A stretch of DNA of 64,000 nt, taken from the IMG/VR virus record IMGVR_UViG_3300033997_000310, positions 50,802 to 114,801 of that record. One strand, given 5' to 3'. Below the pieces are notes generated by a model that made no database searches, was not told the origin of the DNA, and saw only the letters and a list, made by a program, of their open reading frames with translations. Position numbers and translations under genes: made by a program. Of the stretch, positions 14,735-45,368 are shown one piece after another. This DNA comes from a virus. Each line of letters starts with the position of its first letter. The first letter of the stretch is position 1.

Positions 14735-16933
14735 ATGGCGCTGACGGGACGCAGCCGGAATGTGGTGCTGGCATGGCAGAACTTCGTGGACGAGAGCATC
14801 ACAGTTCTGACCAGCCCGACATCGTTTGTTTCTGGCATGCCGCTGAGCAACGTCAAGAACGACAGGCTCAAGAAGGTGGCGCGCACCACCGGCAACTCCG
14901 TGATTTTCGACTTCGACTTCGGCCAGGCCGTGCCCATCAGCATGGCCGCGATCCTGGGGCACAATCTCACCGAAAACGCGACCATGCGCATCCAGGCGGC
15001 AAACGCTCGCAGCGGCACGGCCAGCGCGCCGGGCGGCTACACGCTTGCATTGCCTGATCTGGTCTACGACACGCGTCAGACCCTGCGTAGCGGCACCGCG
15101 CGCGGGGCCTACACCTGGACCAGCAGCATGCTGGACCATGATTTCACGACGGGCACACTGCCGGCCGGGTCCAGCTTCAGCCGGGCCAGCCCGGCGACCT
15201 ATTTCGACTATACCGGCACCATGCGCACGGCGGCGACCGGGGAGCCGCGGTACGACTACGACCCGGTGACCAAGACGGCGCGCGGCATCCTGATCGAGGA
15301 GGCGCGGACGAACCTGCTGCTGAACAGCGAGGCGCTGTCCACCCAGAGCGTCGTGGTCACCGCGCAGGCATACACGCTGTCATTCTACGGGACTGGTACG
15401 ATTACGCTGTCTGGTGCATCTACCGCGGGCCCGCTGGTGGGGGGCGGCGCCTTTCCGGCGCGCACCACGCTGACCTTCACGCCGGCCGCCGGCACGCTGA
15501 TGCTGACCGTCACCGGCACGGTGCAATATGCCCAGCTGGAAGCCGGTGCTTTCCCGACCAGCTACATCCCAACCACAGCCACCACCGTCACTCGGGCCAC
15601 AGATTTCCTGAATATGCCGACCAGCGTGCTGCCTTTCAATTCGGCGGCAGGCACGTTGTTGACCTCATTCAAAATGCCATATGTGGGCGGCGCCGGTTAT
15701 CCAGGTGCGGCCTTTTTCGATGATGGAACCGTAAACAATTACATTGGCTCGTTCGTGGCTGATGCCGCATCCGATGCGACGTATTTTGAGGTAAAGACGG
15801 GCGGGGTACAGCAATTTTACGGCTCGGTAGGAACATATGTGGCGGGTACGTCTGTTACCGTAGGCGGGGCGTGGTCTGCCGCAAATTTTGCCGCATCCCT
15901 AAATGGTTCTACACCGGCGACGTCATCATCAGGGACAATTCCGACTGTGAACGTGCTCCGCGTCGGCACGTTGTTGGCAAACCTGGCCCCCCTCAACGGC
16001 TGGATCAGTCGCCTGACCTATATCGCCTCCCGCGTCAGCAATGCCGACCTCCAGACCCTGACCAATCCCGCCACGTCGGCAGCCACGCGCGCGGCCACGC
16101 TGGCGCCCTATGCCGGCACGGCCGGCACGGCGGCCATCACCCTGGGCACTGGCAGCAAGACCGTCTATGTCGACGACGCTGACATGCGCTTCTATGCCGG
16201 CACGACCGTGCGGCTGTCTATCGACGACAGCAACTATATGTCCGGCACGGTGACCTCCTATTACCGCCCCTCGCGCCGCTTGGTCATCAACTCGACCACC
16301 GTCGTCGGGTCCGGCTCTGCAACGACCATGGCCGTCACTCGCGAGACCGACGACATCAAGGTCTGGCCGGATGTGACTCCTTTTGGTGAGGGCGGGTATT
16401 GGGGGCGGTTCACGTGGGGTGGCCTGCTGTCGCTCGTCGGGAGGGATTACCTCCCGCCTGGCATCCACATGCCGGCGCTATTCACAGGCGATGACGAGCC
16501 GATCTACGCGCGGTATCTGAAGCTGGAAATCACCGACACCAGCCTGAGCTATATCGACATCGGCCGGCTGTTCCTGTCGGCCGCATATCAGCCGACGCGG
16601 AACCTGGAGTTTGATTGGTCGCTTACCCAGGTCGACCCCAGCCCCAAGGAGCGGTCACGGGGTGGGCAGGTCTATGTCGACGGCCGTCCGCAGTATCGAC
16701 GCATCGCACTTCGGCTGTCCGGCATCTCCCGCGACGAAATCATGTCACAGGTCTACGAGATGCAGCGCGAGCTTGGCGTGCGCCGGCCCTTCCTGCTGAT
16801 CGTCGATCCCACGGACCCCATCAACCTGCATCGCCTTACGCTTTATGGCTCGCGGCCAGACGATGCACCCATCAGCAACCCGCTGACCAACAACTATTAC
16901 GCCGTCGAAATCGTCTCAGAGGAGTGGCTGTAA
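14735..16933 (+). CDS. tail-tip protein with carbohydrate-binding modules
   Basis: 732 residues, starting one base after the previous stop. Between about 145 and 290 it has the repeated phage signature FSRASPATYFDYTG, GILIEEARTNLLLN and QLEAGAFPTSYIP, a carbohydrate-binding-type module found in tail proteins of many alphaproteobacterial phages. A concanavalin-like domain follows (about 300-430). The N-terminal part (PLSNVKNDRLKKVARTT) resembles tail-tip attachment domains. It probably contributes to host surface recognition. Confidence 0.65.
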   Translation: MALTGRSRNVVLAWQNFVDESITVLTSPTSFVSGMPLSNVKNDRLKKVARTTGNSVIFDFDFGQAVPISMAAILGHNLTENATMRIQAANARSGTASAPGGYTLALPDLVYDTRQTLRSGTARGAYTWTSSMLDHDFTTGTLPAGSSFSRASPATYFDYTGTMRTAATGEPRYDYDPVTKTARGILIEEARTNLLLNSEALSTQSVVVTAQAYTLSFYGTGTITLSGASTAGPLVGGGAFPARTTLTFTPAAGTLMLTVTGTVQYAQLEAGAFPTSYIPTTATTVTRATDFLNMPTSVLPFNSAAGTLLTSFKMPYVGGAGYPGAAFFDDGTVNNYIGSFVADAASDATYFEVKTGGVQQFYGSVGTYVAGTSVTVGGAWSAANFAASLNGSTPATSSSGTIPTVNVLRVGTLLANLAPLNGWISRLTYIASRVSNADLQTLTNPATSAATRAATLAPYAGTAGTAAITLGTGSKTVYVDDADMRFYAGTTVRLSIDDSNYMSGTVTSYYRPSRRLVINSTTVVGSGSATTMAVTRETDDIKVWPDVTPFGEGGYWGRFTWGGLLSLVGRDYLPPGIHMPALFTGDDEPIYARYLKLEITDTSLSYIDIGRLFLSAAYQPTRNLEFDWSLTQVDPSPKERSRGGQVYVDGRPQYRRIALRLSGISRDEIMSQVYEMQRELGVRRPFLLIVDPTDPINLHRLTLYGSRPDDAPISNPLTNNYYAVEIVSEEWL

Positions 16934-18280
16934 ATGCCTGTCGTCAATGGAAACGAATACACCGCAGACGGCAACTTCAATGGCAACAAATACGCCGACT
17001 CTGCACTGGGGCTGATCCCGGCGCTGACGGACGTGGTTGCGCACTGCGAAGGCATCTTCCGCGGCACCAGCACCAGCAGTGTGACGGTGGGCAATGGCAC
17101 CAAGACGCTGACCATCAGCCTGAACCGGCCGATCTACATCGGCTCGTGGGTGCGCATTGAGGCGCAGGCGAACAGCGCCATCTCGATGGAGGGTACGGTC
17201 ACCGCCTACGACAGCGGCACCGGGGTGCTGTCCGTCTCGGTTGACCCCTCTGACGTCAGCGGAGCCGGCACGCTGGCGGCCTGGTACATCTTCACGATGG
17301 GCCGGCGCGGCAAGGACGGCAATGCGGGAACTTTGGCGACGAACAGCGTGGCGGGCGTGGCTGCGCTGGCAACGCAGGCGGAGGTGGACGGCCGCACCAT
17401 CACGGGCAAGATCGTGGCCCCGTCCACGCTGGCGGAAGGGCTGGGCCTGAAGGGCACCGACATCGCCAGCGCATCCACGCTGACGCTGCCCACCATCGGC
17501 GACTATTTTAACGTGACTGGCACCACTGGCATCACCGCCATCAGCACCAGGGCAGCCGGGCGGGACGTTACCCTGGTGTTTGCCGCATCCCTGACTGTGA
17601 CACATAACGGCACCTCGCTGATCCTGCCGGGCGGCGCAAACATCACTGTCGCGGCCGGTGATGTCATGCGCCTGAAGTCCGAGGGAAGTGGAAATTGGAG
17701 GTGCGTCAGCTTCAATAGGGCAAGCCTTGCTGCTGGAGCGCCGGCCCCCGGTGAGTATCTCCTGTCCTATCAGGCCGTGACCGGCTCCCCGTCCCAGATC
17801 GATATCACTTCAGGAATCACCTCGGCGTATGATCTTTATGTGGTGCGGTTCCTTCTGGTAACGTTTAACAGCATCGTGTCAATCGGGTTGCAGATCGGAA
17901 GCGGCTCTTTCACCACCACGAACTATTTGTATGGCTCCAGTATCAGCCGTAGTTCTTCCGGATCAGTCAGCGCCGCCAATTCAACTTCAGCGTCGGCAAT
18001 TATGTTGACCGCTGCGGGTGACGTTGTGAGCGGTCGTGACGTGATTGGCGAGGTGATTATCAACCGTGCTGATAGCGGGTCTAGTTCCGGTGTGCTTGCG
18101 CGATTCTGGAGCATGTATAGCTATACAGCGGCATCACCAGCGGAAATTGTGCATGTCGTAGGCGCTGGTTGGCGCGCGCCGACACCGATCACTGTCATCG
18201 ACCGAATCCGCCTTCTTCCTTCGTCCGGCACATTCCAGAACGCTGGTTACGTCAACCTCTATGGCATCAGGAAGTCGTAA
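16934..18280 (+). CDS. putative tail fibre / receptor-binding protein
   Basis: 448 residues, immediately after the previous stop. The N-terminal 110 residues are an attachment-type beta domain; a GRRGKDGNAG collagen-like junction follows at about 124-133, then a helical linker and a Ser/Gly/Thr-rich beta domain to the C-terminus. This layout (attachment domain, shaft, sugar-binding head) suggests a fibre that contacts the receptor. Sequence detail does not identify the receptor. Confidence 0.6.
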   Translation: MPVVNGNEYTADGNFNGNKYADSALGLIPALTDVVAHCEGIFRGTSTSSVTVGNGTKTLTISLNRPIYIGSWVRIEAQANSAISMEGTVTAYDSGTGVLSVSVDPSDVSGAGTLAAWYIFTMGRRGKDGNAGTLATNSVAGVAALATQAEVDGRTITGKIVAPSTLAEGLGLKGTDIASASTLTLPTIGDYFNVTGTTGITAISTRAAGRDVTLVFAASLTVTHNGTSLILPGGANITVAAGDVMRLKSEGSGNWRCVSFNRASLAAGAPAPGEYLLSYQAVTGSPSQIDITSGITSAYDLYVVRFLLVTFNSIVSIGLQIGSGSFTTTNYLYGSSISRSSSGSVSAANSTSASAIMLTAAGDVVSGRDVIGEVIINRADSGSSSGVLARFWSMYSYTAASPAEIVHVVGAGWRAPTPITVIDRIRLLPSSGTFQNAGYVNLYGIRKS

Positions 18281-20380: not shown

Positions 20381-20473
20381 GCATAATACCGCATCCGGTC
20401 GATTGCAGGAATGGCCAACCTATAAGCATGACTTACAGGTTGCTATCGGCCCGCTGGTCAAGTGCTATTTTTC

Positions 20474-20634
20474 GTCCACGCTCATTTGCGTGGTGAGTGA
20501 ATCCAGCCCCAGGTAAACGAGATTCTGCCCCTCATTGCCGCTCCCACTAAGTGCGGGGTGAGTGATCCAGCGCGATGCCATTCATATAAGGCTGTCATGT
20601 TGTCACCCCCGCCCAAATGCGGGGTATGTGAACC
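20474..20634 (-). CRISPR. CRISPR cluster 3: three degenerate repeats downstream of dinG
   Basis: Three repeat units start at about 20474, 20540 and 20602, spaced 65-66 bp. Each keeps the GC-rich hairpin; the third, with core CCCCGCCCAAATGCGGGG, is identical in its core to the unit at 23882 in the main array. The first two are decayed. The period matches the right half of the main array. Orientation on the - strand is inferred by comparison with the main array. It lies past the dinG stop and may be the leader-distal remnant of a formerly continuous array. Confidence 0.65.
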
Positions 20635-20692
20635 GATCCAGCCACAAAGCACTGACATGGAAAGAAAACCAGCGCCTGTGACCAGGGAAAAA

Positions 20693-22906
20693 TCACGCTG
20701 CGACCTCCTGTTTCACCGCATACGGGAACACTTCCGCGTAACCGTACACATCATCAAACCCCGACCGGAACCGTTCCGGGATGCAGTCGGAGAAGCCGGC
20801 GAACGAGGCGTCGTTGTAAGCCCGCGCCCGGCGGTTGCTGGTGATGCTCTGCGGCAGCGGGAACCGTGGATCGAGCATCCAAACCCGCACGTCGTCGCTG
20901 GCCTGACGGATGCCGCGACCGAAGCCCTGTTTCAGCCGCTTCTTGGCCCCCAGGGCGACGCTGGAGAAGTCGATAGCCCGGATGGCATCTTCCGACAGCC
21001 CGCGCGCACGCAGGGCCGCCGCACGGGCCCCAGAGCGGGCATTATCGAGCGATCCGAACGGCAGTCGGGTGACGACGAGGTTCTGCACCATGCCGGGCAG
21101 ATCGACGCCTTCCCATGCCGCCGGGGAAATCAGCAGAGCGTTCGGCGTTTCGCGGTACTTGGCCAGCGCATCAACCAGCTTCGTGCCGCGCACATGCTCA
21201 ATCACGTCAACCCCAGCCGCACGGACGCAAGCGGCAATTGCCTGCGTGTCGACATAGCTCGTGGTCAGCACCAGCGTGCGCCCGCCGGCGGCATGGGCCG
21301 CAACGACGCCATCAGCGGCATATTCAACCCAGGCCGGGTTGGTGGTGACGATTTCCTCATCGTCGACCTTGGCCGTGGGGCGGGGAGCGGCGCGATCCGC
21401 CAAATGCAGGGAAGACCAGCGCCCGAACACTTCCGGCGCGAACCGCTGGCACCGATCCGGCGACACGTTCTTGACCTTCTCCGGGTTGGACCGGTCGTAA
21501 TAGATGCCGACCTCGCTGCGGAACGACCGGAAGTCGGCATCGCTTTCCGACTGGCTCCGAGCCGGCGCGTCCAGGGTGGCGCTGGTGAAGACCAGCGAAC
21601 GCAGGAACGGCGCATATTCCGTGCCGTCCGACGACTTGCCGGGCTTGAACAGGCGCGCGGCCAGCCGGCCAGGATAGACCGGCACGATGCTGAGGGACGG
21701 ATAGGAGCGTACCGGAGACCAGCGCAGCAGCGGGCACTGAATGGCCGAATGCTCGCCTTCCTTGGCGTCCAGCGTGCCGTTGGCGAAGCTGCGCAGTTCC
21801 TCCACCATGTCACGCATCTCCGCGACGACACCGGCATCAACGCCGGCTTTCTTGCCGCGCGTGGAAGCCTCCAGCAGCAGACCGCTGAGATAGACCGCGT
21901 GCCCCACGGCTTCCTTGCGCAGATCGGCCATGTTCGGGGCCGAAAGCAGGACATGCCCGCCACGATCATCGCGCGTGAAGCCGGGGCGATGCTCCATCTT
22001 CTCGAAGGTGGCCCCCATCCATGCTTCCCAATCCTTCAGGGCGGCGAACGCCTTGATGGTGTCGATACCGGCGTCACTGACGGCGGTGAGCGTGCGGCGC
22101 ATCATCGGGGCAGAGACGCGAGTGTCAAAAACCGATTCGGCGGCGTGCGGGATGCGGTCGGCCTCATCGATCACGCCGATATCGAATCCGTCGCTTTCAC
22201 CGGCCAGCAGCCGGTTCCACCGGATGGCGGAAATCATGGTCAGGGCATGGTTGGTGACGACGATATCGGCGGTATGACTGCCAACAACGTGGTCCTTGTA
22301 CCGCTGCTGGTCATCGTCGCTGCACACGGCGGTGAGGCACACGTCTGCCTCGGAAATGCCGCACGGCAGCGGGCCGAACGTCTCTTTCCACTCCGCGATA
22401 TCGCCGCTGGCCTCTGCGAAGCTGCGCAGCGCCTCCAGGCTGATCCGGGCATCGTCCGTGAGCGCGCCATCGGTGGCCATGGCAGCCATCAGTGCAACGA
22501 TGCGGGACGGTGACAGGAAGTTGCGGCGACCCTTGCGCACGGCGGCGCTGATCTGGATTCCGGTGATGGCCTTGGCGACCGCGATGGCGACCGGCACGTC
22601 CTTGCCCATCAACTGCGTCTGCAGATTGATGGTGTATGTGCTGACCAAGCCGCGCTGCCCGGTGCGGGCGCAATGCACGGCCATGGGAACCAGATAGCCC
22701 AGCGACTTGCCGACGCCGGTTTCGGCTTCATAGAGCGACACTTCGCCGATGCCGGGTGTGGCGTTCTCGAAGCTGTTGGCAACCGCCTTGGCGTAGGCGA
22801 TTTGCTGGGGATTGGGGCGATACGCCTTGCCCAGCTTCTTCATTTCGGCATCAACGGGACCGCCAGCGGCGAACGCGGCGGCGACGATTTCAGAGAGAGT
22901 CGGCAT
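20693..22906 (-). CDS. csf4: type IV-A CRISPR-associated DinG-family helicase (Csf4)
   Basis: 737 residues. Superfamily 2 XPD/DinG helicase: Walker A ETGVGKS at 62-68, motif II DEAD at 247-250, and late motifs including WEGVDLPGM and QGFGRGIRQ near the C-terminus. In type IV-A systems this helicase moves along DNA after crRNA-guided binding and is needed for interference. The first iron-sulphur Cys of housekeeping DinG (in GRxNYLC) is Ser132 here (GRRNFLSP); Cys182, 190 and 195 remain, so a 4Fe-4S cluster is doubtful, as in other Cas-associated DinGs. Flanking arrays and csf genes support csf4 over a chromosomal dinG. Confidence 0.85.
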   Translation of the reverse strand: MPTLSEIVAAAFAAGGPVDAEMKKLGKAYRPNPQQIAYAKAVANSFENATPGIGEVSLYEAETGVGKSLGYLVPMAVHCARTGQRGLVSTYTINLQTQLMGKDVPVAIAVAKAITGIQISAAVRKGRRNFLSPSRIVALMAAMATDGALTDDARISLEALRSFAEASGDIAEWKETFGPLPCGISEADVCLTAVCSDDDQQRYKDHVVGSHTADIVVTNHALTMISAIRWNRLLAGESDGFDIGVIDEADRIPHAAESVFDTRVSAPMMRRTLTAVSDAGIDTIKAFAALKDWEAWMGATFEKMEHRPGFTRDDRGGHVLLSAPNMADLRKEAVGHAVYLSGLLLEASTRGKKAGVDAGVVAEMRDMVEELRSFANGTLDAKEGEHSAIQCPLLRWSPVRSYPSLSIVPVYPGRLAARLFKPGKSSDGTEYAPFLRSLVFTSATLDAPARSQSESDADFRSFRSEVGIYYDRSNPEKVKNVSPDRCQRFAPEVFGRWSSLHLADRAAPRPTAKVDDEEIVTTNPAWVEYAADGVVAAHAAGGRTLVLTTSYVDTQAIAACVRAAGVDVIEHVRGTKLVDALAKYRETPNALLISPAAWEGVDLPGMVQNLVVTRLPFGSLDNARSGARAAALRARGLSEDAIRAIDFSSVALGAKKRLKQGFGRGIRQASDDVRVWMLDPRFPLPQSITSNRRARAYNDASFAGFSDCIPERFRSGFDDVYGYAEVFPYAVKQEVAA

Positions 22907-22920
22907 GTTTGAGTTCCTGT

Positions 22921-22930
22921 TTGCAGATGG
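22921..22930 (-). promoter_or_regulatory. CCATCTGCAA element upstream of dinG
   Basis: The - strand reads CCATCTGCAA, then AGGAA and the dinG ATG 14 bases from the element. The same decamer precedes about nine other - strand genes (41817, 54629, 57495, 58273, 59767, 60431, 60969, 62389, 63653). It links dinG to the phage early genes in its expression signals. Confidence 0.6.
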
Positions 22931-22931
22931 T

Positions 22932-22974
22932 GATGGGAAAGGTACATCATGGCGGGCAATGAGAAAAGTGCATA
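22932..22974. promoter_or_regulatory. two operator-like palindromes upstream of dinG
   Basis: Two 17-bp sites related to AATGR-N7-YCATT: GATGG-N7-ACATC at 22932-22948 and AATGA-N7-GCATA at 22958-22974. The second shares GAGAAAAGT in the centre with the sites at 27867 and 51015. They lie 25-70 bp upstream of the dinG start, where a repressor would block its promoter. The first site is weak. Confidence 0.55.
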
Positions 22975-22980
22975 ATTTGA

Positions 22981-24307
22981 CCGGCCCCGGCAGGCGGGGG
23001 GATTTTTGCGTTCATCACTCAGTTGACGGACCCGCAGCGGCGGGTGGCGGCATGAACGAGAAGCCGCAGTTGCGCACCTCTTTTTCGTCCCCGCGCTGGC
23101 GGGGAAAGGGGCGTTGCCGAATCCGTCCTTTATCAATTTCCATACCCGCAACTGCGTGGTCGCTTGGTCGGCGGTCGTGACCGCTCCACCACCGAGTTTT
23201 CACCCCCGCGTGTGCGGGGAAGGCCACGGCTGTCTTGCGCGTCGGTCTACGGAGCCATTTTTCATCCCCGCGCGTGCGGAGCAGCATTGGCGCTGGATAT
23301 CATCGCGGACCTGAACCAATTTCCGTCCCCGCACGTGCGGGGGAGGCCTGGACGGCAGAGACCTACCAGCGCCTCGATTGTTTTCGTCCCCGCGCGTGCG
23401 GGGGATACCCCGCCACCTATCGCCGCAATGGCGTGTTCCTGTTTTCGTCCCCGCGCGTGCGGGGGAGGAATGAACATCCAATCAATGTGCAAGCCCTGCC
23501 ACTTTCCGCCCCCGCCCATGCAAGGCTTCCCATTTTATCAAGCAGTCGTCATTGGCCGCTCTTTCCACCCCCGCCATGCAGGGAACCGTCCGCCCGATGT
23601 TGGCTCCATCCATCTGGTTGTCGTCCCAACGAGTGCTGGGAAAGTGATTCTGCCACGGGTTGAAATGGTGGCGTCGATATTTTCACCCCCACTGGATTGC
23701 GGGGTAGGTGAGGCATCGTATCGGTTTCGTCAGACCCGGCCAAGTTTCCGTCCCCACCAGAATGCGGGGCAAGAGAGACGAAGGCTGGCACGTTCAAGGT
23801 GGTGTTCGTGTTTCCGTCCCCACCAGAATGCGGGGTAAGCAAAACGCTGTCCTTGCCGCTGGTACGTCGCCTCACGTTTCCGGCCCCGCCCAAATGCGGG
23901 GTATGTGAACCCTCATTTTTCCGATTTCGTACCCATCAAACGTTTTCGTCCCCGCCCAAATGCGGGGTAAGAGAGACACATGCACAAGGCTGGCCTGATA
24001 ACCGGTTGTTTCCGTCCCCACCTAAATGCGGGGTAAGAGAGACCGGCGCCCGGGTGAAGCGGATGGCCCGCCAGTTGTCGTCCCCACCTAAATGCGGGGT
24101 AAGAGAGACACATCGGGGGGTGAATCCGAACAGCGATCTGTTGTCGTCCCCACCTAAATGCGGGGTAAGAGAGACGCTCGTCATCGCTCAGAAGATCCCG
24201 CTCCAGTTGTCGTCCCCACCTAAATGCGGGGTAAGAGAGACTCCCGCCGACGGCCATCGGGCGCGGTATAGGTTGTCGTCCCCACCTAAATGCGGGGTAA
24301 GAGAGAC
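22981..24307 (-). CRISPR. CRISPR cluster 2: main array, about 22 repeat units
   Basis: Twenty-two hairpin units between csf2 and dinG. The rightmost five (24014, 24080, 24146, 24212, 24278) are nearly identical and, with the units at 23750-23948, keep a 66-bp period: a 36-bp repeat (for example 24272-24307) plus 30-bp spacers. Further left the repeats are 28-29 bp with about 32-bp spacers (period about 60-61) and decay progressively. On the - strand the segment after the hairpin (ACGACAAC or ACGAAAAC) is conserved across both halves, matching the position of a Cas6e-generated 5' handle, which argues for transcription on the - strand, in line with the cas genes. Confidence 0.9.
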
Positions 24308-24408
24308 TGATCCTAACACAACTCATTGCAATCAAATACGAATTACGCATTCGCATTTGAAAAAAACCATGATGTACTTGTTCAAGAACCGGTGAAAATG
24401 CGCGCTTT
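24308..24408 (-). promoter_or_regulatory. AT-rich CRISPR leader with large palindrome
   Basis: An A/T-rich stretch directly beside the most uniform repeats and upstream of them if the array is read on the - strand, as expected of a leader. It contains a 27-bp palindrome at 24333-24359 (CAAATACGAAT and ATTCGCATTTG arms, one mismatch, 5-bp centre). A GC hairpin at the csf2 stop (24399-24419, followed by ATTTT on the - strand) may partly end csf2 transcription before the leader. Confidence 0.55.
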
Positions 24409-25470
24409 TTACGGCGCGCGGAAGTTCAGGCTGGTCACGTCGGTGGCATCCCAGGCCGCCAGCGCGGAAGCGATGATGCCGGTATCCAGCAACTCCAGGC
24501 CACCGAACGGTTCGATCTGGACGCTGCCGACATTTGCGAAGCCGTCACCTTCCCGCACCGTCACCGTCCAGGTGCCGCTGATCACCCCGCAGCCGTGATT
24601 CGCGTGCGCCCCGACAACCGGGTCCAGCGCCAACTCACGCAGCGCGGCCAAGAACAGGCCCAACTCCAGCTTGGTCACGTTCCGCAGAACCATGCGCTGG
24701 TTCAGCACCTTACCCTGCGGGATCACCTCGTAACCGCCCAACACCTGCTTGATGTTGACGCCGGCGGCCTCGACCTGCCCCTTCAGCGCGTCACGCTTGG
24801 CGGACAGTTCCGCGACTTCAGCAGCCGCATCGGCATTGCCCTTGGCGTTCTTCACGGCCTTGCGCAGGGCCGTCTCGATGTTCTTCAGTTCGGCCTTGGC
24901 CTTGCTGTTGCTGGCACCTTCCTCCGACATGGACAGCCACTTGTCGCGCTCGCCATCAGCCAGGGTATTGAGCGTGTCCGGGGTGCGTTCCATGTCATCG
25001 CTGCGGATGCCAGCGATCTTATCCGGTTCGGTCGGCTGTTCCGGCACGGCATGGCTCACCATCAGCTTGCCGGCGGTATGCGCGGCCATGCTGCCGAAAA
25101 GCGAGATCAGCGGGTTCGCGGCACGCAGATTGGCCGCCGCGATGATATCGGCCTTGCTGTCGCTGCCCTTGTCCTTGATGCCGCCGACCACGTTGAAATA
25201 GTGGTCATCCAGGGTGAAGACGGGAGCGCCATCACCCTGCACCGCGCGGCGAACGACGGTGAGCGCGTGCCGACGCAGCTTTCCGCGCAAGCCGGAGCCA
25301 GGGAAATAGACGGTCTCGGCATTGCCCACGGTCATGCGGGGCAGACGCGACGGCGGGTTCTTCTCGCGTTCGGCGCGCTTCTCGGTCTCGGTCTTCGGCG
25401 GGCAGGTGGCCAGAGGCGATTCGGTGGTGATGGTGCCGTTCAGGACGACGGTATAGGTCTGGGTGTTCAT
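24409..25470 (-). CDS. csf2: type IV-A Cas7-like backbone protein (Csf2)
   Basis: 353 residues from the ATG at 25470 (preceded by GGAA); the frame is open further upstream only because it runs through CRISPR repeats. Cas7-family features: the Gly-rich loop YFPGSGLRGKLRR at 55-67 and a C-terminal strand with GTWTVTVREG. It would polymerise along the crRNA. It has repeat clusters on both sides: cluster 1 separates it from cas6e and cluster 2 from dinG. A coiled-coil-like insertion (about 165-230) is rich in Lys, Ala and Glu. Confidence 0.8.
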   Translation of the reverse strand: MNTQTYTVVLNGTITTESPLATCPPKTETEKRAEREKNPPSRLPRMTVGNAETVYFPGSGLRGKLRRHALTVVRRAVQGDGAPVFTLDDHYFNVVGGIKDKGSDSKADIIAAANLRAANPLISLFGSMAAHTAGKLMVSHAVPEQPTEPDKIAGIRSDDMERTPDTLNTLADGERDKWLSMSEEGASNSKAKAELKNIETALRKAVKNAKGNADAAAEVAELSAKRDALKGQVEAAGVNIKQVLGGYEVIPQGKVLNQRMVLRNVTKLELGLFLAALRELALDPVVGAHANHGCGVISGTWTVTVREGDGFANVGSVQIEPFGGLELLDTGIIASALAAWDATDVTSLNFRAP

Positions 25471-25522
25471 GTTCGTGTTCCATGTTGGGTAGGTGCGGGG
25501 TGGCCCGCGATCGAGTGTGTTT

Positions 25523-25860
25523 TGTCGGCCCCGCGTGGGCGGGGCATGAGCAGAAACCCACTCGACCTCTGGGCGGTGACTTTTCGCCCCCGCGTGTGCG
25601 GGGCGAGAGTCGGTCGGGATGTGGCCAATCACCTTCTCGTTATCGTACCCGCGCGGGTGCGGGTTTTGGTCTTGACTGTCACTGAACTTCGCAATCTCCA
25701 TCCTCTTGCCGTCCCCGTGCTCGTGCGGGGTGAGGGGTGCGTCGTTCGATTACTCGGATGACAACGAAGTCCTTACCGTCCCCGCGCACGTGCGAGGCAT
25801 CGGCTGTTGTGCTTTCGGATCAAGACCAGCCCTTTCCATCCCCACTCACGCCGGGAACAG
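25523..25860 (-). CRISPR. CRISPR cluster 1: six divergent repeats between cas6e and csf2
   Basis: Six units begin at about 25523, 25581, 25641, 25706, 25773 and 25833, spaced about 58-67 bp. Each has the core hairpin (for example CCCCGCGCACGTGCG or CCCCGTGCTCGTGCGGGG). The repeats differ from each other far more than those at the right end of cluster 2. The rightmost unit overlaps the last codons and stop of cas6e. On the - strand they would be transcribed with the operon, between the cas6e and csf2 coding parts. Confidence 0.75.
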
Positions 25861-26421
25861 CCGCAACATCCCCATGCCATAGCTCTTGGCCGGGCCGATG
25901 CCGATCTTCATCGCATCCGTCAGTGCATCGGCATCGGTAACGCGCAACGCGCCGGTGAAGGTGGTGAAATCTAAGCCGTCCTTGCCGATCTTCGCCTCGT
26001 TGCGCATGACATGGCGGAACTCTGTGCGGAGCGCGACTTGCTCGACCACGAAGCCGTGCTTCAGCCCGCGCGCCTTGAGCCAGTCCATCCGGCCCTCATC
26101 GTCCCCACGACGCAGCATCACGCGCTTGCCGCGCTGCCCGCCGTTGCGCTGATCCACGCGGATGCACCGCGTCGGATGCGCCGTCAGCACGAAGCGGTAC
26201 GTGCAGCCTTCGACTGGCAATGCCACGTCGTCGGCGTGCTGGGCAACTGTATCGGGCAGGTTGTCTGAGCGAATCACGATGCCAGGCGCGGCCTCGTCAA
26301 TCGCAAACAGGAAATCCCGCGTCTTGTCGCTGCCTTCACCAAGCATGAAGGCATAGGCCATTTCATGCAGAGCATAGCGGTTGTGGGGCAGGGCGGGCAG
26401 TTGGATGGAGACTTCACGCAT
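25846..26421 (-). CDS. cas6e: Cas6e-type crRNA endoribonuclease
   Basis: 191 residues. The C-terminal GIGPAKSYGMGMLRLFPA is the Gly-rich signature of the Cas6e (CasE/Cse3) subfamily known from type I-E; the N-terminal YALHEMAYAFM supplies the likely catalytic His19, and VLTAHPTRC begins the second ferredoxin-like half. It would cut each repeat 3' of the hairpin to release crRNAs. Type IV-A loci often carry Csf5 in this role, some a Cas6e. It starts three bases after the Csf1-like gene ends. Its last codons coincide with a CRISPR repeat unit. Confidence 0.8.
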   Translation of the reverse strand: MREVSIQLPALPHNRYALHEMAYAFMLGEGSDKTRDFLFAIDEAAPGIVIRSDNLPDTVAQHADDVALPVEGCTYRFVLTAHPTRCIRVDQRNGGQRGKRVMLRRGDDEGRMDWLKARGLKHGFVVEQVALRTEFRHVMRNEAKIGKDGLDFTTFTGALRVTDADALTDAMKIGIGPAKSYGMGMLRLFPA

Positions 26422-26424
26422 TTT

Positions 26425-27114
26425 TCAGCCCTCGTTCTTCTCGCGGTCACCGCACAGCAGCGACAGCATGTTGAAATCATCGCTGCCCACGGCGGGCAGG
26501 CGGTCGATAACGGCGTCCAGCGCCGGGCACTTGACGATCATGGCGTCGATTTCTGCGTCGATCGATTCCGCCTCTGAGTGATTGCGCTTACGGCGCTCCA
26601 GGGCGCGGGCGGCGGCCCGCCATTGCATCGGCGCGATGCCGTCCAGATCGGCATAAAGGCCTGCAACCAGGGCGCGGTTGATGGTTGCGGTCTCGACGCC
26701 GGAAAGGCTGATCACATCGCTGCCGTAATTGATCCGCCAGTTGTGGATCGTGTTCCAGTCCTTGCCATGGATGACGACCATGAACGGGCTGGCCGGCGGC
26801 GACAGGACGATTTCGGCAATCCAGTTGGGAATAGTGCGCCAAGATCCATCATGGATCACAGTGCTGGCCGGCGGCTGGCGGCACGGCTTGATATCGGCCA
26901 TCAGCACGCAGCCGGTCTCAGTGACCAGCGACATGGCCTTGCCGCCACCCAGGCGAACCGCAGAACCGGCATTGGCCGCGTGCGCGTGGTTGCGGGACAG
27001 GGCAACGATGGCCGGATTGCTTTCATTACTCACGGCAGAATGAAGGTACTGGCCAATGCCGCGATACCAGAAATCCAGCGGGTCAAGGTTGATGATGTCC
27101 ATTGCTTGCCTCAT
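26425..27114 (-). CDS. csf1: Csf1-like subunit (type IV large-subunit analogue)
   Basis: 229 residues, in the operon position of csf1 and of similar size. The central segment (NWIAEIVLSPPASPFMVVIHGKD, listed here only as residues about 97-118) resembles Csf1 proteins. The N-terminal zinc finger usual in Csf1 is missing: of four Cys residues, two lie far apart as TGCVLMADIKPC and the rest are isolated. The start overlaps the csf3 stop (ATGA). It would sit at the crRNA 5' end and contact target DNA. Assigned by context and weak similarity. Confidence 0.6.
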   Translation of the reverse strand: MRQAMDIINLDPLDFWYRGIGQYLHSAVSNESNPAIVALSRNHAHAANAGSAVRLGGGKAMSLVTETGCVLMADIKPCRQPPASTVIHDGSWRTIPNWIAEIVLSPPASPFMVVIHGKDWNTIHNWRINYGSDVISLSGVETATINRALVAGLYADLDGIAPMQWRAAARALERRKRNHSEAESIDAEIDAMIVKCPALDAVIDRLPAVGSDDFNMLSLLCGDREKNEG

Positions 27115-27797
27115 GCGGCCAGAAAGCGCGGGGAAATCACGGCGTCGCCAACCGGATTAGGCACGGCGCACAGTGCGTAGTCGCCTTGCCAATACGGCGG
27201 CTGAAATCGCTCCGCATTCAGCGCGGCGCGCTGATTGGACAGCTTCCCCCAGATGCTGACGGGGACAGGCCGGGCCGGACTGCCATCAGCCAGGGCCAAG
27301 CCGACGTGGTGGCCAGTCACTTCCCGCACATCAATGCGGGACACCTGACCATATCCGACGGAACGCTTGGTTCCGATGCCAGATGCGTCGGACAGCAAAT
27401 CCTTGACGGCGGCAACGTCTCCGGTTCCGCAGAACCAGACGGCATCGGCATTGATGCTGGTGTATTCCGACAGGCTGTTCTGGTAATCGCCCCGCGCGCT
27501 GTCGATGCGCGGGAGCGCCTTGCGCCCGCCGTTCGGCCGGATCATGTCCGGCGTAATTTCCATGTCGGCACGGATTGAGCCGACGATCATCACGCCGCGC
27601 AATGGAGAATTGCCATCGATGAAAGCCTGCGAACCAGCCCAGACGCCGCTGCTGCGATCCAGCGGGATTTCTGCGTGTGCGCGTTCAACGCTGCCGGTGC
27701 GCTCATAAATCAGCGCCGCAAGCAGTCCATCAAGCAGCAGCCGACGACCCGGAATGACCGGTGTTGCCATGCTGATCTTGATCACAAACGGGGTCAT
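27111..27797 (-). CDS. csf3: type IV-A Cas5-like subunit (Csf3)
   Basis: 228 residues from an ATG preceded by a perfect AGGAGGT. Csf3 features: the N-terminal LLLDGLLAALIYERTG and the Gly-rich GIGTKRSVGYGQVSRI (about 161-176). Csf3 caps the crRNA 5' end in the type IV complex. It is the first gene of the - strand csf operon and overlaps the next by four bases. An operator-type palindrome lies 70 bp upstream (27867-27883), between it and the divergent endolysin gene. Confidence 0.8.
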   Translation of the reverse strand: MTPFVIKISMATPVIPGRRLLLDGLLAALIYERTGSVERAHAEIPLDRSSGVWAGSQAFIDGNSPLRGVMIVGSIRADMEITPDMIRPNGGRKALPRIDSARGDYQNSLSEYTSINADAVWFCGTGDVAAVKDLLSDASGIGTKRSVGYGQVSRIDVREVTGHHVGLALADGSPARPVPVSIWGKLSNQRAALNAERFQPPYWQGDYALCAVPNPVGDAVISPRFLAA

Positions 27798-27866
27798 CCG
27801 ACCTCCTGTTGTCTGCGTTTCGATGGGCTGATATTGATAAATTCCATTACGCAACGCAAGCAGGAA

Positions 27867-27883
27867 AATGAGAAAAGTTCATT
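27867..27883. promoter_or_regulatory. operator-like palindrome between csf operon and lysis genes
   Basis: AATGA-GAAAAGT-TCATT, a full match to the palindrome that flanks the repressor/cro switch and almost identical to the site at 51015. It sits in the 165-bp gap between csf3 (leftward) and the endolysin gene (rightward), so a bound repressor could control either direction. Confidence 0.7.
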
Positions 27884-27962
27884 ATATTGCTGCGAGGCAT
27901 GAGATTGGACGTTTTCCAGATTCGCGGTATGATGGCGCGACTCGGGAAGCAATGGGGCCGCC

Positions 27963-28616
27963 ATGTCGATCATCACGCTTTCGCTGCTGGCAGCCGCCAT
28001 GCCGGACTCCACTACACAGAACCGCGAGCGATATGCCGATCCGCTGGGCGACGCCTGCGTTCGCTTCGGAATCACGTCCCCCAAGCAAATCGCCATGTTC
28101 ATTGCCCAAGTCGGGCATGAGAGCGGCTATCTCCGTAGCGTTCAGGAAAGCCTGAACTACCGGGCCGAGGCGCTGGTTCCGACCTTCGGTTCGCATCGCA
28201 TCACCGCTGAACAGGCGGCCCGGCTTGGCCGTTCCGGTGATCGTCCGGCTGATCAACAGGGCATCGCCAACGTCGTGTATGGCGGAAGGTTCGGCCAGGA
28301 CATTCTTGGCAACACCGAACCAGGCGACGGCTGGCGGTTCCGCGGCCGCGGGCTGATCCAGACGACGGGCCGGAAGAACTATGCGACGTGCGGGGCTGGT
28401 ATCGGCCTCGACCTGATCAGCAATCCTGACTTGCTTCTTGAGCCTGAACATGCCGCCGCGTCAGCCGGTTGGTTCTGGTCATCGCGTGGTCTGAACCGGT
28501 TCGCGGACGCTGGAGACCTTGAAGGTTGCACCAAGAAGGTCAACGGCGGACTGAAGGGCTTGGATGATCGCCGGGCCATCTATGACCGCGCCCGGAAAGT
28601 GTTCGGGTTGCCATGA
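27963..28616 (+). CDS. endolysin, GH19 chitinase-like lysozyme
   Basis: 217 residues. Glycoside hydrolase family 19 pattern: IAMFIAQVGHESGYLRSVQESLNY (given here as residues about 42-65), with the catalytic Glu in HESG, then RFRGRGLIQTTGRKNY and GWFWSSRGLNRFAD. The enzyme cleaves peptidoglycan during lysis. It is the first gene of the lysis cassette and overlaps the holin gene by four bases. Confidence 0.9.
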   Translation: MSIITLSLLAAAMPDSTTQNRERYADPLGDACVRFGITSPKQIAMFIAQVGHESGYLRSVQESLNYRAEALVPTFGSHRITAEQAARLGRSGDRPADQQGIANVVYGGRFGQDILGNTEPGDGWRFRGRGLIQTTGRKNYATCGAGIGLDLISNPDLLLEPEHAAASAGWFWSSRGLNRFADAGDLEGCTKKVNGGLKGLDDRRAIYDRARKVFGLP

Positions 28617-29666: not shown

Positions 29667-29838
29667 CCTGCCTGCCGTCAACTGGCGCGTGATTCAGACA
29701 CCGGAAGGCAACATGATTGCCCTGGAGCCCAGCGCCTATGAGGCGCTGAGCCTGGGCTTAGCCGACGTTCTGCGGTGGATGCGGGAAGCACGATCGCAGA
29801 TCCTATACTATCGGCGCCTGGAACTCGAAGGCCAATAG
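29509..29838 (+). CDS. outer-membrane spanin lipoprotein (Rz1-like)
   Basis: 109 residues from the ATG at 29509 (preceded by AAGGGG); this start gives a real lipoprotein signal with Arg4 and Arg8, a hydrophobic core and lipobox LLAC at 15-18. A Pro-rich periplasmic part follows (EPPPAKVQLALPPVPDPVD), typical of Rz1. It overlaps the i-spanin gene by 158 bases in a different frame. A later ATG at 29542 would leave too short a signal. Its end overlaps a convergent gene by 36 bases. Confidence 0.7.
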   Translation: MPSRNFWRSASMLALLACSACSNKPAPLEVKLAPEPPPAKVQLALPPVPDPVDLPAVNWRVIQTPEGNMIALEPSAYEALSLGLADVLRWMREARSQILYYRRLELEGQ

Positions 29839-30444
29839 CGTCGCTGCCGCCGAAACAGCGACCTTGGTCACCTTGTCGGCAACAATACCGGCTTTCTCCC
29901 ACAGAGCGCTGCGCATTCTGTCAATCCTGCGTTCGACGTCGACCGGAAAGTCTAGAAACGCCCCATCTGAGGGGTTGTTGCCGCGCCCTACCGTTCTTGC
30001 CCTGGCCCTGGCCAGGAAATGCCTGTGGATTTCAGGGGTGACCACGGTGGCCTCCCCATACTCACGCTGCTCCCGCACAAACGCGATCATGCGTGCGGCG
30101 CCTTCTTTGCCAAGACGACCAAAAAGCGGATGCTGGCTCCAGGGCGACAGCTTGTCGTTCCACGATCGCTCGACATGCTTGGATGCGCGCTGTACACGCG
30201 TCTCGAAATCTGGGTCCGAAATAATGGTGGTTCCGATCGGCGGGATGTAATACTTGGCCCTCACCGAAGCCGACCCCATCACCGGGAACATCATCCTGCC
30301 TGCAATGCCGGTGATGTGACTTGGAATCCCACCATCTCTACTGTTCCAAACTATTTCCGCATCTCCGTCGTTGTTGGCATAGGGTATCAAGCAGTAAGCA
30401 AGATGATGACTGAATTCCTCTCTGTATTTTGCACTCAAGATCAA
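29803..30444 (-). CDS. hypothetical protein convergent to the lysis genes
   Basis: 213 residues; no recognised family. Mostly soluble with basic helices in the C-terminal half and a hydrophobic Ala/Val-rich end (VSAAATLLAFEF). It lies between the lysis genes and the integrase, a common place for genes expressed from the prophage, and its 3' end overlaps the o-spanin gene tail-to-tail. The upstream 30445-30473 gap is AT-rich, as is its 5' half, which is unlike the surrounding GC level and may mean transfer. Confidence 0.45.
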   Translation of the reverse strand: MILSAKYREEFSHHLAYCLIPYANNDGDAEIVWNSRDGGIPSHITGIAGRMMFPVMGSASVRAKYYIPPIGTTIISDPDFETRVQRASKHVERSWNDKLSPWSQHPLFGRLGKEGAARMIAFVREQREYGEATVVTPEIHRHFLARARARTVGRGNNPSDGAFLDFPVDVERRIDRMRSALWEKAGIVADKVTKVAVSAAATLLAFEFQAPIV

Positions 30445-30473: not shown

Positions 30474-31748
30474 TTACTTGATGGCGATTTTGACAATGGT
30501 ACTGACTTGACCATCGAAGCCAAACTTTGGCGCGTGGTTTTCTACCATCTCATCTTTGTACGATTGCAGCAGATGGCCGTAGTGCTTCTCCACCATGCGG
30601 GTGTCCGTATGCCCAAGGTTCTGCGCCAGCACCAGCATCGGCATGCCGTTCATCAGGCTGAGGCTGGCATAGGTGTGTCGCAGCTCGTGGAAAGTGCAGC
30701 GCGGCTCGATCCGGCCATTCACGCATGCGGCTTCCACCCGGCGTGATTGGTGGTTTGGCCCCCACGGGTCGCCGTCCGGCCTGGGTAGCATCGGCGTCGT
30801 TTTATGTCGGCCGGCAACCTGTGCATCGAAGAACGCACGGCCTTCTGCTGTGAGGCTGATCCAGCGCGACTTGCCGTCTTTCGTGTCGCCAAAGAACAGC
30901 CGGCCCTGCTGATAATCGCCCACCCGCAACCGGCATAGCTCGCTGTATCGCGCGCCCGTGTGCAGGCCCGCAATGATCATGGGGCGGAAATCAGGATCGC
31001 AGGCATTCACCAGTCGGCGGGCCTCGTCCGGCTCCAGAAAACGGATGCGCGCGGCGTCGACGCCCTCAAACGGCTCGATGCGATCCCAGGCCGCGGTGCT
31101 GATGGCCTCGTTCTCGCGTGCGGCATGGTTCAGCAGCGCCTTCAACGTCGTCAGCACACCGTTCGCAGTGCTGCGCCGGGCCCTGATCTCGTCCTTCGTC
31201 TGCGGCGGCGGGGCAAATTTCTGCGCCTCACCCTTGCGCGTGCGCAGCCGGCGGCCGGAGCTGGCCACCTTGTTGAGCCATGTTCGGATCTGACGACTGG
31301 TCAGTTCGCGCACCACCAGCTTGCCCAGGTCGGGCAGGATGTGCGCGTCGATCGTTTTCTGGAACTGCTGCACCGACTTCCGCTGCGTGCGGAACCAGGC
31401 CATGTAGTCGTCCGCGGCCTCTTTCACAGTGAGGTCGGCCCGGCCCCGGCCGGCCAGCTCGTGCGCGCGGGCCTCGAACCAATCGCGCGCCGCGCCCTGC
31501 GCCTGCTGCCAGGACAGGACATGCACGCCGTCCGCGTCCAGCGTGTCGTCTGCGGCGCCAAGGCGGCGCTCCTCGTGCTTCTTGTCGCCCAGATACATGC
31601 GGGCGATCCAGGCCCCGCCGGTGGCCGTCTTGCGGTAGCCAATGCTCCGGCCATGCTCCAGGGTATGCCAGTAGGGTTTCTTCGAGGCGGAAAGCCGCTC
31701 ACGGCCCTTGCGGGTCTCCAAGCGGCTGTCGCGGGTTAGCCGTGCCAT
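30474..31748 (-). CDS. int: tyrosine-type integrase
   Basis: 424 residues with AGGAGG before the ATG. N-terminal Arm-binding and core-binding domains (SAM-like, about 105-200), then the catalytic domain with Arg in HTGARYSELCRL, HELRHTY (His-x-x-Arg-His) and the nucleophile Tyr in EKHYGHL. It integrates and, with an excisionase, excises the phage. A tRNA 3'-end sequence 1.7 kb upstream (33446-33473) is a candidate attachment core. Confidence 0.95.
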   Translation of the reverse strand: MARLTRDSRLETRKGRERLSASKKPYWHTLEHGRSIGYRKTATGGAWIARMYLGDKKHEERRLGAADDTLDADGVHVLSWQQAQGAARDWFEARAHELAGRGRADLTVKEAADDYMAWFRTQRKSVQQFQKTIDAHILPDLGKLVVRELTSRQIRTWLNKVASSGRRLRTRKGEAQKFAPPPQTKDEIRARRSTANGVLTTLKALLNHAARENEAISTAAWDRIEPFEGVDAARIRFLEPDEARRLVNACDPDFRPMIIAGLHTGARYSELCRLRVGDYQQGRLFFGDTKDGKSRWISLTAEGRAFFDAQVAGRHKTTPMLPRPDGDPWGPNHQSRRVEAACVNGRIEPRCTFHELRHTYASLSLMNGMPMLVLAQNLGHTDTRMVEKHYGHLLQSYKDEMVENHAPKFGFDGQVSTIVKIAIK

Positions 31749-32733: not shown

Positions 32734-33206
32734 TTCGACCCCAGCACGTCATGCACGATCTGTTCGATCGGCATCAGGTGTTCTTGGACGATATCCGCAA
32801 TGGCCCGGCCGTCCAGCGTGACCTTCTGCATCTGGTGCAGCAGCCCAGCCCGCACCGCGGCCCCGAAACACTCGCCGATCTGGTCCAGAGCCTTGCCGGC
32901 CGGCGTGTCGACCAGGGCGGGCTGTGCCGCCGGCGGGTCAATGGTATCTGCCAGGGTGCGCAAGAGCGACGCCATGGCCCGCATGTGCATGTCGCCGGGG
33001 TTGGACCGGTAGGCGGCGGCGAAGATGTGCCGGCCCATCAGCGCCTCAAGCTGGGCGCGCAGCAGCGGGGAATTCCAGCAGGACACCTCCTGGTCGTCGG
33101 CCACCCCGACCGCGTTGCAGCCGATCATGGTCTCCACAACCGACTTGGCGGCCTGGAAATCCGGGAAATGAAAGGTGGGTGTTTCCGGCTTGCTGATCGC
33201 GTTCAC
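32730..33206 (-). CDS. hypothetical protein, first gene of the integrase-side operon
   Basis: 158 residues from the GTG at 33206, chosen because GGAGG lies six bases upstream. Largely helical; no motif recognised. Two operator-type palindromes (33258-33274, 33307-33323) lie upstream, so this small operon is probably under repressor control. Confidence 0.45.
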   Translation of the reverse strand: MNAISKPETPTFHFPDFQAAKSVVETMIGCNAVGVADDQEVSCWNSPLLRAQLEALMGRHIFAAAYRSNPGDMHMRAMASLLRTLADTIDPPAAQPALVDTPAGKALDQIGECFGAAVRAGLLHQMQKVTLDGRAIADIVQEHLMPIEQIVHDVLGSK

Positions 33207-33257
33207 GTCGTTCCTCCGTCCCAATCAGATGCCCATCACGAGCAACATATTGATGTA

Positions 33258-33323
33258 TATGAGTGATTTACATATTCTCATATGGAAAACGGAAATGCAA
33301 GGGAATAATGGGAAAAATCCATA
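33258..33323. promoter_or_regulatory. two operator-like palindromes
   Basis: TATGA-N7-ACATA at 33258-33274 and AATGG-GAAAAAT-CCATA at 33307-33323, both of the AATGR-N7-YCATT type. They lie in an AT-rich 380-bp gap without genes, upstream of the - strand genes that begin at 33206. Confidence 0.55.
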
Positions 33324-33443
33324 AGAGGCGTTGATATGATGAGATTTCTGGAATTGGCCTTGTGGATCAACGATTGACAAATTATGAGTTTAATATAGAT
33401 TAACAGCGCCAAGTAACGACGAAGTAAAACTCTCACGCTGAAA

Positions 33444-33473
33444 ACGAGGATTCGAATTCCTCTGGGGTCGCCA
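33444..33473 (+). other. tRNA 3'-end segment, candidate attP core
   Basis: GAGGA-TTCGAAT-TCCTC forms a complete T arm (33446-33462), followed by seven acceptor bases TGGGGTC, a G discriminator and CCA. No 5' half of a tRNA is present. A truncated tRNA end in an intergenic region near an integrase is the usual form of an attP that restores the host tRNA on integration. The anticodon is not recoverable, so the tRNA identity is unknown. Confidence 0.65.
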
Positions 33474-33588
33474 ATACTTAGCTTGTTTTTGCTGAGTCCG
33501 TCCCAATCATTTCTCAATCATCTATGTTATAAGCGAATGGCGCGGACTATTGTGAAAAAATCCGTCCGCGCCATTAGCATTAAGGGCT

Positions 33589-34062
33589 TCAGGTTTTAGC
33601 TTGGTCCCGCACAGTCGCCCTAAACCAAGCCGTCACGCTCACATACCCGCAAACCTCCCGGCACGCAGCGGACCACACGCTTTTCCACCCCCGGTCTTGC
33701 TGCATCCTCACCGTCTCCCGGTGCAGCTCCGTGCCCTGCATGCGTTCCAGGAGGGCTTGTAGCCCAGCCGGGCCGGGCGTGATGGCCTCCAGCGCCGGGA
33801 CCGCATCCACGCGCTTCTGGCGCCTGCTTTTGGGCCTGCTGGACTTCGGACGGGCGCCGCTGGCCCCGATCATGCGCCGTATGTCGGACAGGGCATTCTT
33901 CACCCCGCGAAAGCTGTCCGACCCGCTGCTGGGCACGACGTAGAACTGCTCCTTGCCCTGGTGCGTGAAATAGATGCGCGGGTGGTTCTTGGACCGGACG
34001 ACGCGGCCCCGGATGCCGTGCCGCTCCAACTCGGCAAGCACGGCTTGGATTTGGTCGGTCAT
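33589..34062 (-). CDS. hypothetical protein with HicA-like N-terminal domain
   Basis: 157 residues. The first 65 (AELERHGIRGRVVRSKNHPR, then QFYVVPSSGSDSFRGVKNALSDIRRMIG) have the double-stranded RNA-binding-like HicA pattern: a GxH-like strand, VVP, then an S-x-x-R-G-x-x-N helix. The catalytic His typical of HicA is replaced by the NHPR context. A basic linker and a second helical domain follow. Likely nucleic-acid binding; a toxin role is not supported by a partner antitoxin. Confidence 0.45.
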   Translation of the reverse strand: MTDQIQAVLAELERHGIRGRVVRSKNHPRIYFTHQGKEQFYVVPSSGSDSFRGVKNALSDIRRMIGASGARPKSSRPKSRRQKRVDAVPALEAITPGPAGLQALLERMQGTELHRETVRMQQDRGWKSVWSAACREVCGYVSVTAWFRATVRDQAKT

Positions 34063-34070
34063 GCTGCACC

Positions 34071-34595
34071 TCAGAACGGGATCAAGTCGTCGTCGATCGC
34101 ATCGGTGGCCGGTGCGGGGCGCCCACCGCCACTCCCGCCGCCGCGCCCGCCTCTGTCGGCAGCATACCCACCACCGCTGCGTTGATTGCCGCCCCGCTGC
34201 CCGCCGCCATACCCCGCATCGCCCGGATCGTAGGCGTCACCGCCCTGGCTCTCGCGCCCGCCCAGCAGGAGGAGCTTGGCATCGAACTGCAGAACGACCT
34301 CTGTCGTGTACCGGTCCTGGCCCTGCTGGTCGGTCCACTTCCTCGTCTTCAGCTTGCCCTCGACCAGCAGCTTCGTGCCCTTTTTGACGAAGCGTTCGAT
34401 GACGCCCACCAGGCCCTCGTTCCAGACGACGACGTTATGCCAGTCGGTGGATTCCTTCTTTTCGCCGCTCCTGTCCTTCCACGTCTCCGTGGTGGCGACG
34501 CTGAATGTGGCGACCTTCTGGCCGCCCTGGGTATTCCGGATTTCGGGATCCTTCCCGACATTTCCGATCAGGGTGACGCGATTGAGTGATGACAT
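34071..34595 (-). CDS. ssb: single-stranded DNA-binding protein
   Basis: 174 residues. The OB fold (LNRVTLIGNVGKDPEIR, TETWKDRSGEKKESTDWHNVVVW, VEGKLKTRKWTDQQGQ, listed as separate motifs within residues 4-105) is clear. A Gly/Arg-rich linker follows and the acidic tip DDDLIPF is the standard docking peptide for replication partners. It coats ssDNA during phage replication and RecT-mediated recombination. Confidence 0.95.
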   Translation of the reverse strand: MSSLNRVTLIGNVGKDPEIRNTQGGQKVATFSVATTETWKDRSGEKKESTDWHNVVVWNEGLVGVIERFVKKGTKLLVEGKLKTRKWTDQQGQDRYTTEVVLQFDAKLLLLGGRESQGGDAYDPGDAGYGGGQRGGNQRSGGGYAADRGGRGGGSGGGRPAPATDAIDDDLIPF

Positions 34596-34605
34596 GGTGT
34601 TCTCC

Positions 34606-39154: not shown

Positions 39155-39159
39155 GGTGT

Positions 39160-45275: not shown

Positions 45276-45307
45276 TGCGCCCTCCGTTATTGGTTATATG
45301 CATCAGC

Positions 45308-45337: not shown

Positions 45338-45368
45338 GAGAAAATCGCCACCGGAGCAGCGTTTTTCT

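Follow-up and report, generated by a model that had tools for sequence, protein, structure and literature searches.

A complete-looking type IV-A CRISPR-Cas effector module in a large temperate phage

Work on type IV-A CRISPR-Cas systems has dealt almost exclusively with plasmids, where they are seen as a weapon of plasmid against plasmid. Here we describe a type IV-A locus in a virus, the linear metagenomic IMG/VR record IMGVR_UViG_3300033997_000310 (114,801 bp), of which positions 50,802 to 114,801 (64,000 nucleotides) form the window analysed; positions below are those of the window unless another record or contig is named. On its minus strand lie csf3, csf1, cas6e, csf2 and dinG (csf4), with CRISPR repeat units, about 30 in all, set among them. 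We put at roughly 75% the probability that this is a complete type IV-A effector module which serves a large temperate phage as a weapon during lysogeny. The gene content, the intact reading frames and key motifs, the polarity of the arrays, and the conservation of both the repeat hairpins and, in a second phage, the locus itself were observed directly. The features of the locus are as follows.

27111 to 27797, minus strand: csf3, Cas5-like subunit, 228 amino acids
26425 to 27114, minus strand: csf1, Cas8-like subunit without the CxxC zinc finger
25846 to 26421, minus strand: cas6e, predicted CRISPR RNA (crRNA)-processing endoribonuclease, 191 amino acids
25521 to 25860, minus strand: array C, six degenerate, irregular units at a spacing of 59-67, between cas6e and csf2
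24409 to 25470, minus strand: csf2, Cas7-like backbone, 353 amino acids
24309 to 24408, minus strand: presumed leader, flanked by csf2 and by the first of the identical repeats of array B
23679 to 24308, minus strand: array B, 10 units with a 66-bp period, 36-nt repeat GTCTCTCTTACCCCGCATTTAGGTGGGGACGACAAC, spacers of about 30 nt
23022 to 23642, minus strand: array A, 11 units with a mostly 61-bp period (29-nt repeat and 32-nt spacer), ACGAAAAC-like handle
20693 to 22906, minus strand: dinG/csf4, CasDinG helicase, 737 amino acids
20468 to 20634, minus strand: array D, three units, downstream of dinG

In a preliminary description of this DNA, made from its letters alone, the five genes were called at these positions on a single strand as a complete-looking type IV-A effector system, and open reading frames (ORFs) and profile searches bore this out: Csf2, Csf3, Cas6e and DinG were clearly recognised and Csf1 weakly, all five frames are open, and the motifs are intact wherever they were checked. 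The three CRISPR clusters of that description are correct if the two adjoining middle arrays are taken as one block, and are otherwise four arrays. Both Csf2 and Csf3 had their best profiles in type IV and also matched solved IV-A proteins. Csf2 matched the PADLOC model Csf2_0_IV with an E value of 1.2e-52, as against 1.2e-7 for the best model outside type IV (Csm3), and the IV-A3 Csf2 chain 8rc2_A of the PDB with 7.9e-39. For Csf3 the corresponding values were 2.4e-37 (Csf3_0_IV) and 6.7e-6 and 9.4e-6 (PDB Csf3 chains), with a score of 41.7 that is under the NCBIfam cutoff of 140 bits. Gene starts were adjusted by comparison with the second phage. That of csf3 is at 27797, with GGAGG upstream of the ATG, that of csf1 at 27114 (an ATGA overlap with csf3) or 27102, and that of csf2 was set at 25470 because an ORF extended to 25701 would run through array C.

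Like Csf2 and Csf3, the processing enzyme is well recognised. Cas6e scored 71.7 bits with TIGR01907 (cutoff 45.2) and matched Pfam CRISPR_assoc (9e-26), the PADLOC Cas6/Cas6e models (6e-27) and the E. coli CasE chains of the PDB (4e-10), so that a Cas6-family enzyme stands here together with repeats that form hairpins. The phage protein and its nearest relative have in common an N-terminal histidine, His19, which, going by the CasE family, stands at the expected catalytic position.

The helicase had been proposed to be the CRISPR-associated DinG rather than a housekeeping one, and its position in a tree agrees. It matched the PADLOC model Csf4_0_IVA (2e-140) and the IV-A3 DinG chain 8s35_M of the PDB (1e-32), was recognised by Pfam, and retains Walker A (TGVGKS), DEAD, SAT and motif VI (Q-GRGIR) without an HNH domain. 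The tree held 56 sequences: 13 come from type IV loci, 42 are DinG-like sequences of other viral contigs, and one more, L032, is viral too. The 13 type IV rows, the window DinG among them, form a single group (support 99/96) outside of which all 42 other viral rows fall. By tree path the nearest rows are those of Methylobacter, through a weak joining fork (87/47). L032 attaches next to the type IV group and was set aside as a relative, having no csf2 match; among the 46 viral DinG loci scanned, a single one had such a match.

The large subunit is the weakest call of the five, its PADLOC match having an E value of only 0.02, and it was identified as Csf1, in keeping with the "Csf1-like" label given to it earlier, by fold, synteny and profile comparison together. 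A model built from five aligned homologues was modest (mean predicted local distance difference score, pLDDT, 61.7; predicted template modelling score, pTM, 0.55), and its sole significant fold match in the PDB was 8rc2_G (E = 5.2e-4, probability 1.00), the Csf1 of the Klebsiella pneumoniae IV-A3 complex. A tblastn search of 72,556 plasmids, taken up to E = 1, returned three records only, each with the match at the Csf1 position of a type IV-A locus, and the phage Csf1 profile matched that of a group of Methylobacter and viral Csf1 proteins (92.5%, 4.8e-7); against the PDB sequences the Csf1 profiles gave only noise. The Csf1 proteins of Methylobacter, of the viral contig L054 and of Klebsiella each have two CxxC motifs; in both phages the protein has four cysteines, scattered and without a CxxC. 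The zinc-finger domain of Cas8 touches the protospacer-adjacent motif, PAM, in the IV-A1 and IV-A3 complexes that have been solved (PMC11519345). The finger is a trait of the solved IV-A members and not part of the definition of the subtype, and its loss in the phage Csf1 suggests that PAM reading either differs or rests on Csf3.

The loss of the finger extends beyond these phages, as ORFs at the Csf1 position of plasmid loci from Paracoccus, Sulfuricystis, Pseudomonas and Halomonas are likewise without it. Those observed beside csf2 in plasmid IV-A loci are L005:7068-7865, L006:6702-7427, L009:5545-6213 and L010:5069-5710, and none had a PADLOC Cas8 match where scanned. The group of Pseudomonas and Halomonas ORFs matched the phage Csf1 profile (82%, 1e-5), and a fold search with the Pseudomonas ORF did not recover 8rc2_G, so that it is profile match and position that point to Csf1 here. 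As a lead, such ORFs may represent Cas8 subunits that have gone unrecognised, in loci seemingly without one; they are of interest because one IV-A variant has been described as lacking Cas8 (PMC11519345).

Two array geometries coexist at the locus. Array B has the usual polarity, its five leader-proximal units sharing an identical 28-nt part upstream of the cut and the later units degrading, and the first unit of array D has its 5' part in common with unit 7 of array B. Array A, with repeats of 29 nt and spacers of 32 nt, has the geometry of type I-E and a GC-rich hairpin. When the six-pair stem was followed through 30 units of the window, 5 of 180 pairs were broken, as compared with a mean of 12.3 after the arms had been shuffled between units; the fraction of shuffles at or below the observed value was 0.0001, or 0.004 with distinct units only. 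These figures are to be read knowing that the hairpins themselves were used in part to find the units, that arms were placed at their best pairing and that related units are not independent. Four units carry compensatory double changes from C-G to A-T, RNA folding was consistent with the hairpin for most units tried, and in the second phage 0 of 60 pairs were broken, as compared with 4.0 in shuffles. We read the keeping of the hairpin while the repeat sequence drifts as selection to maintain Cas6e cutting, a pattern in the sequences which suggests that selection acts on processing rather than on the repeat sequence itself. As a speculation, such drift might also limit recombination between repeats. 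A single repeat-like hairpin was seen just after cas6e in the second phage (L061:7836-7860), with a counterpart in array C of the window (25832-25860), and it may be a site at which Cas6e cuts the operon RNA.

Relatives in IMG/VR were found by alignment-based scans, as patterns made from DinG or Csf2 singly were too specific and gave nothing. The second phage, represented by the contigs L061 and L062 (the same as L063) from two metagenome records, has the gene order of the window: integrase (81% identity), the RecT region, csf3 (56%), csf1 (64%), cas6e (41%), csf2 (62-64%) and an array, after which the contig ends before the expected position of dinG. This array has the same polarity, with three identical units followed by drift; its leader showed no obvious similarity by eye to the presumed leader of the window. 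From a reading of its ORFs, this phage has its fibre-like genes on the opposite side of csf3, where they separate it from the lysis genes. A third viral contig, L054, comes from an unrelated phage and has its own divergent csf3, csf2, csf1, cas6, dinG and array (60-bp period), adjoining a gene read as a portal protein. Phage carriage of the locus is thus recurrent and, in one lineage, conserved. A scan of IMG/VR with the repeat pattern returned the second phage and, apart from it, only four matches that had neither csf genes nor arrays. Among 50,697 public phage records no relative of Csf2 was found, and its identity to plasmid relatives is at most 35%.

The surroundings of the locus are those of a temperate phage, and three flanking features define its place.

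14735 to 18280, plus strand: tail protein and tail collar fibre genes (PHROG matches), on one flank of the CRISPR block
27963 to 28616, plus strand: GH19-type endolysin (Pfam PF00182, 4e-9; phrog_181, 3e-82), on the opposite flank
30474 to 31748, minus strand: tyrosine integrase (Pfam Phage_integrase, 3e-18), the gene compared above with that of the second phage

The block therefore sits where it had been placed earlier, with tail-fibre genes on one side and the endolysin and other lysis genes on the other, in a record that has a portal-like DUF4055 protein, scaffold, major head proteins, tape measure, tail and fibre proteins, endolysin and an Rz-like spanin, in addition to the integrase, RecT, NAMPT and methylases. 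With the integrase and the structural genes of a phage in the same genome, the block is cargo of a temperate phage. For the repressor mentioned in the preliminary description, the sole candidate was a CII-like match at 50183-50887 that is below the cutoff. The absence of cas1 and cas2 was upheld across the whole 114.8-kb record, where their profiles had no match (Cas3 was not searched separately), and in Pfam the five proteins had no HNH or other nuclease domain besides the Cas6e RNase.

In the mechanism that we propose, the arrays would be transcribed on the minus strand and Cas6e would cut at the base of each repeat hairpin, leaving an 8-nt handle (ACGACAAC-like). By analogy with the studied IV-A systems, Csf2, Csf3, Csf1 and Cas6e would assemble on the crRNA, and the complex would bind matching DNA and recruit CasDinG, the unwinding activity of which, judged by homology, would repress or displace the target without cutting it (PMC11519345; PMC11656645). 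The targets would most likely be rival phages or plasmids that come into the same cell, expression would presumably fall in the lysogenic stage, and new spacers would probably be added beside the leader by Cas1 and Cas2 of the host. A type IV-A3 complex has been reported to protect cells against phage lambda-vir; for Cas1 and Cas2, IV-A3 relies on its host (PMC11519345; PMC11656645). Together with the identical leader-proximal repeats, which look like fresh units, and the lack of Cas1 and Cas2 in the phage itself, the latter suggests by analogy that adaptation occurs in trans.

Several points weigh against this reading. The preliminary description had the phage use the system against other mobile elements, and a spacer search did not bring out such targets: spacers of both phages had no match in the 50,697 phage records, those of the window had a single match at chance level (E = 5) in the 72,556 plasmids, and against the phage itself and the second phage there was nothing beyond matches of 12-17 bases. 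As no target was found, we can only infer use against rivals, which is the most likely role of the system. No promoter above chance was found at the locus, a host donor of Cas1 and Cas2 is assumed, the degenerate arrays A, C and D may be silent, and DNA recognition with a Csf1 lacking the finger may differ from that in the solved complexes.

It could be proposed that the crRNAs guide the non-cutting complex to host genes, such as those for pili, receptors or defence, so that the lysogen is shaped by its prophage. For Pseudomonas oleovorans a IV-A1 system has been described on a plasmid, with a spacer against the host gene pilN (PMC11656645), and the lack of any spacer match beyond the chance-level one to a plasmid would fit. 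However, a polarised, growing array with many spacers suits a record of past invaders more than it suits one or two fixed regulatory guides, and we regard such regulation as unlikely. The I-E geometry and GC-rich hairpin of array A raise another thought, namely that the repeats are decoys which sequester Cas6e or Cascade parts of a host type I-E system in the manner of phage Racr RNAs, which are established (PMC10651486), the cas genes being accessory. The effector genes have nevertheless been kept in two phages, and about 30 units with unique spacers, in repeats very unlike each other, would be superfluous for a decoy, which makes this account distinctly improbable.

About as hard to sustain, or slightly more so, is the view that the locus was captured from a plasmid and has lost its function: most repeats outside array B are degenerate and the spacers have no known targets, yet none of the five frames is broken, the catalytic motifs that were checked are intact, the genes remain open and in order at only 41-64% identity between the two phages, and the hairpins carry compensatory changes. 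Lastly, since the record is metagenomic and linear, a plasmid CRISPR locus could have been joined to the phage in assembly; the integrase, the lysis-side genes and the csf genes are, however, also joined and ordered alike on two more contigs, which come from two metagenome records, and this leaves a chimera close to refuted. A lysogeny-stage weapon of the phage remains the reading that we prefer.

A wider idea is offered tentatively, the odds being against it as a whole, that the phage lineage keeps its own branch of IV-A, where Csf1 no longer has the PAM-reading finger and about 30 repeats of two geometries drift while compensatory change holds a hairpin that Cas6e can cleave, and that this may extend to unrecognised Cas8 proteins of plasmids. 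Were it true, a library topped up by host Cas1 and Cas2 and shielded from deletion between repeats would amount to an inherited arsenal for interference with a relaxed need for a PAM. As at least two related temperate phages have a conserved copy of the locus and another phage contig carries one independently, the use of a nuclease-free CRISPR system by phages to hold a lysogen against rivals becomes testable. The finger-less Csf1 poses directly the question of how PAMs are read, and repeats that have diverged and still fold point to selection on processing, not sequence.

Other genes of the record were also noted. A nicotinamide phosphoribosyltransferase (phrog_448, 5e-192) lies beside a ribose-phosphate pyrophosphokinase-like protein at 37550-39966 (minus strand) and looks like a phage NAD+ salvage pair, and a protein with the central domain of the DNA polymerase III beta clamp is encoded at 61046-62485 (minus strand). 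Adjoining the integrase, at 29803-30444 (minus strand), is a 213-amino-acid protein of no known family with 48% identity to its counterpart in the second phage. Outside the window, a DnaA C-terminal domain is fused to a GcrA-like domain (L003:6544-7884; record 26544-27884), and the GcrA-domain protein hints at an alphaproteobacterial host. A protein with a Hint (intein-type) domain adjoins an M16 peptidase (L003:13137-15660; record 33137-35660), and a transposase of insertion sequence (IS) type (phrog_506, 3e-95) lies about 3.6 kb upstream of the head scaffold gene (L004:4660-5805; record 44660-45805).

Among known systems, the plasmid-borne IV-A3 of K. pneumoniae (8rc2, 8s35-8s37) provides the nearest solved relatives of the phage Csf2 and DinG as well as the fold match of Csf1. 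It likewise has Csf1, Csf2, Csf3, a Cas6e-type enzyme and DinG and no Cas1-Cas2; the phage locus differs from it in a Csf2 that is only about 28-32% identical, in gene order, in the finger-less Csf1, in being phage-borne and in its mixed repeat geometry. The PDB neighbours are thus of IV-A3, and the best PADLOC models, Csf2_0_IV and Csf4_0_IVA, are general ones. A plasmid of Methylobacter sp. (NZ_CP091425) has the same gene set with Cas6e in the order Csf1-Cas6e-Csf2-array-DinG, csf3 likely lying ahead of csf1 as in the phage, and it differs in sequence (35% identity in Csf2, 35-39% in DinG), in a Csf1 with two CxxC motifs and in repeats unrelated in sequence. The Sulfitobacter variant in which DinG carries an HNH domain (PMC10910872) also pairs a IV-A effector with DinG, the phage DinG being without HNH. 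Type IV-A is known mainly from plasmids, as had been stated in the preliminary description, and phage carriage, real as it is here, is less unprecedented than was implied there, since type IV loci have been reported in prophages and some phages (PMC11656645, PMC10848311) and a IV-A3 locus in a K. pneumoniae prophage (PMC9841420). Those loci, too, have their effector genes within a phage or prophage, and in the text consulted none like the present one is described, a distinction made on their descriptions. As phage-borne type IV is already published, the locus is a divergent variant of it and not a new kind; what is new here is a phage lineage in which the locus is divergent and conserved, a Csf1 without the zinc finger and mixed arrays that conserve their structure.

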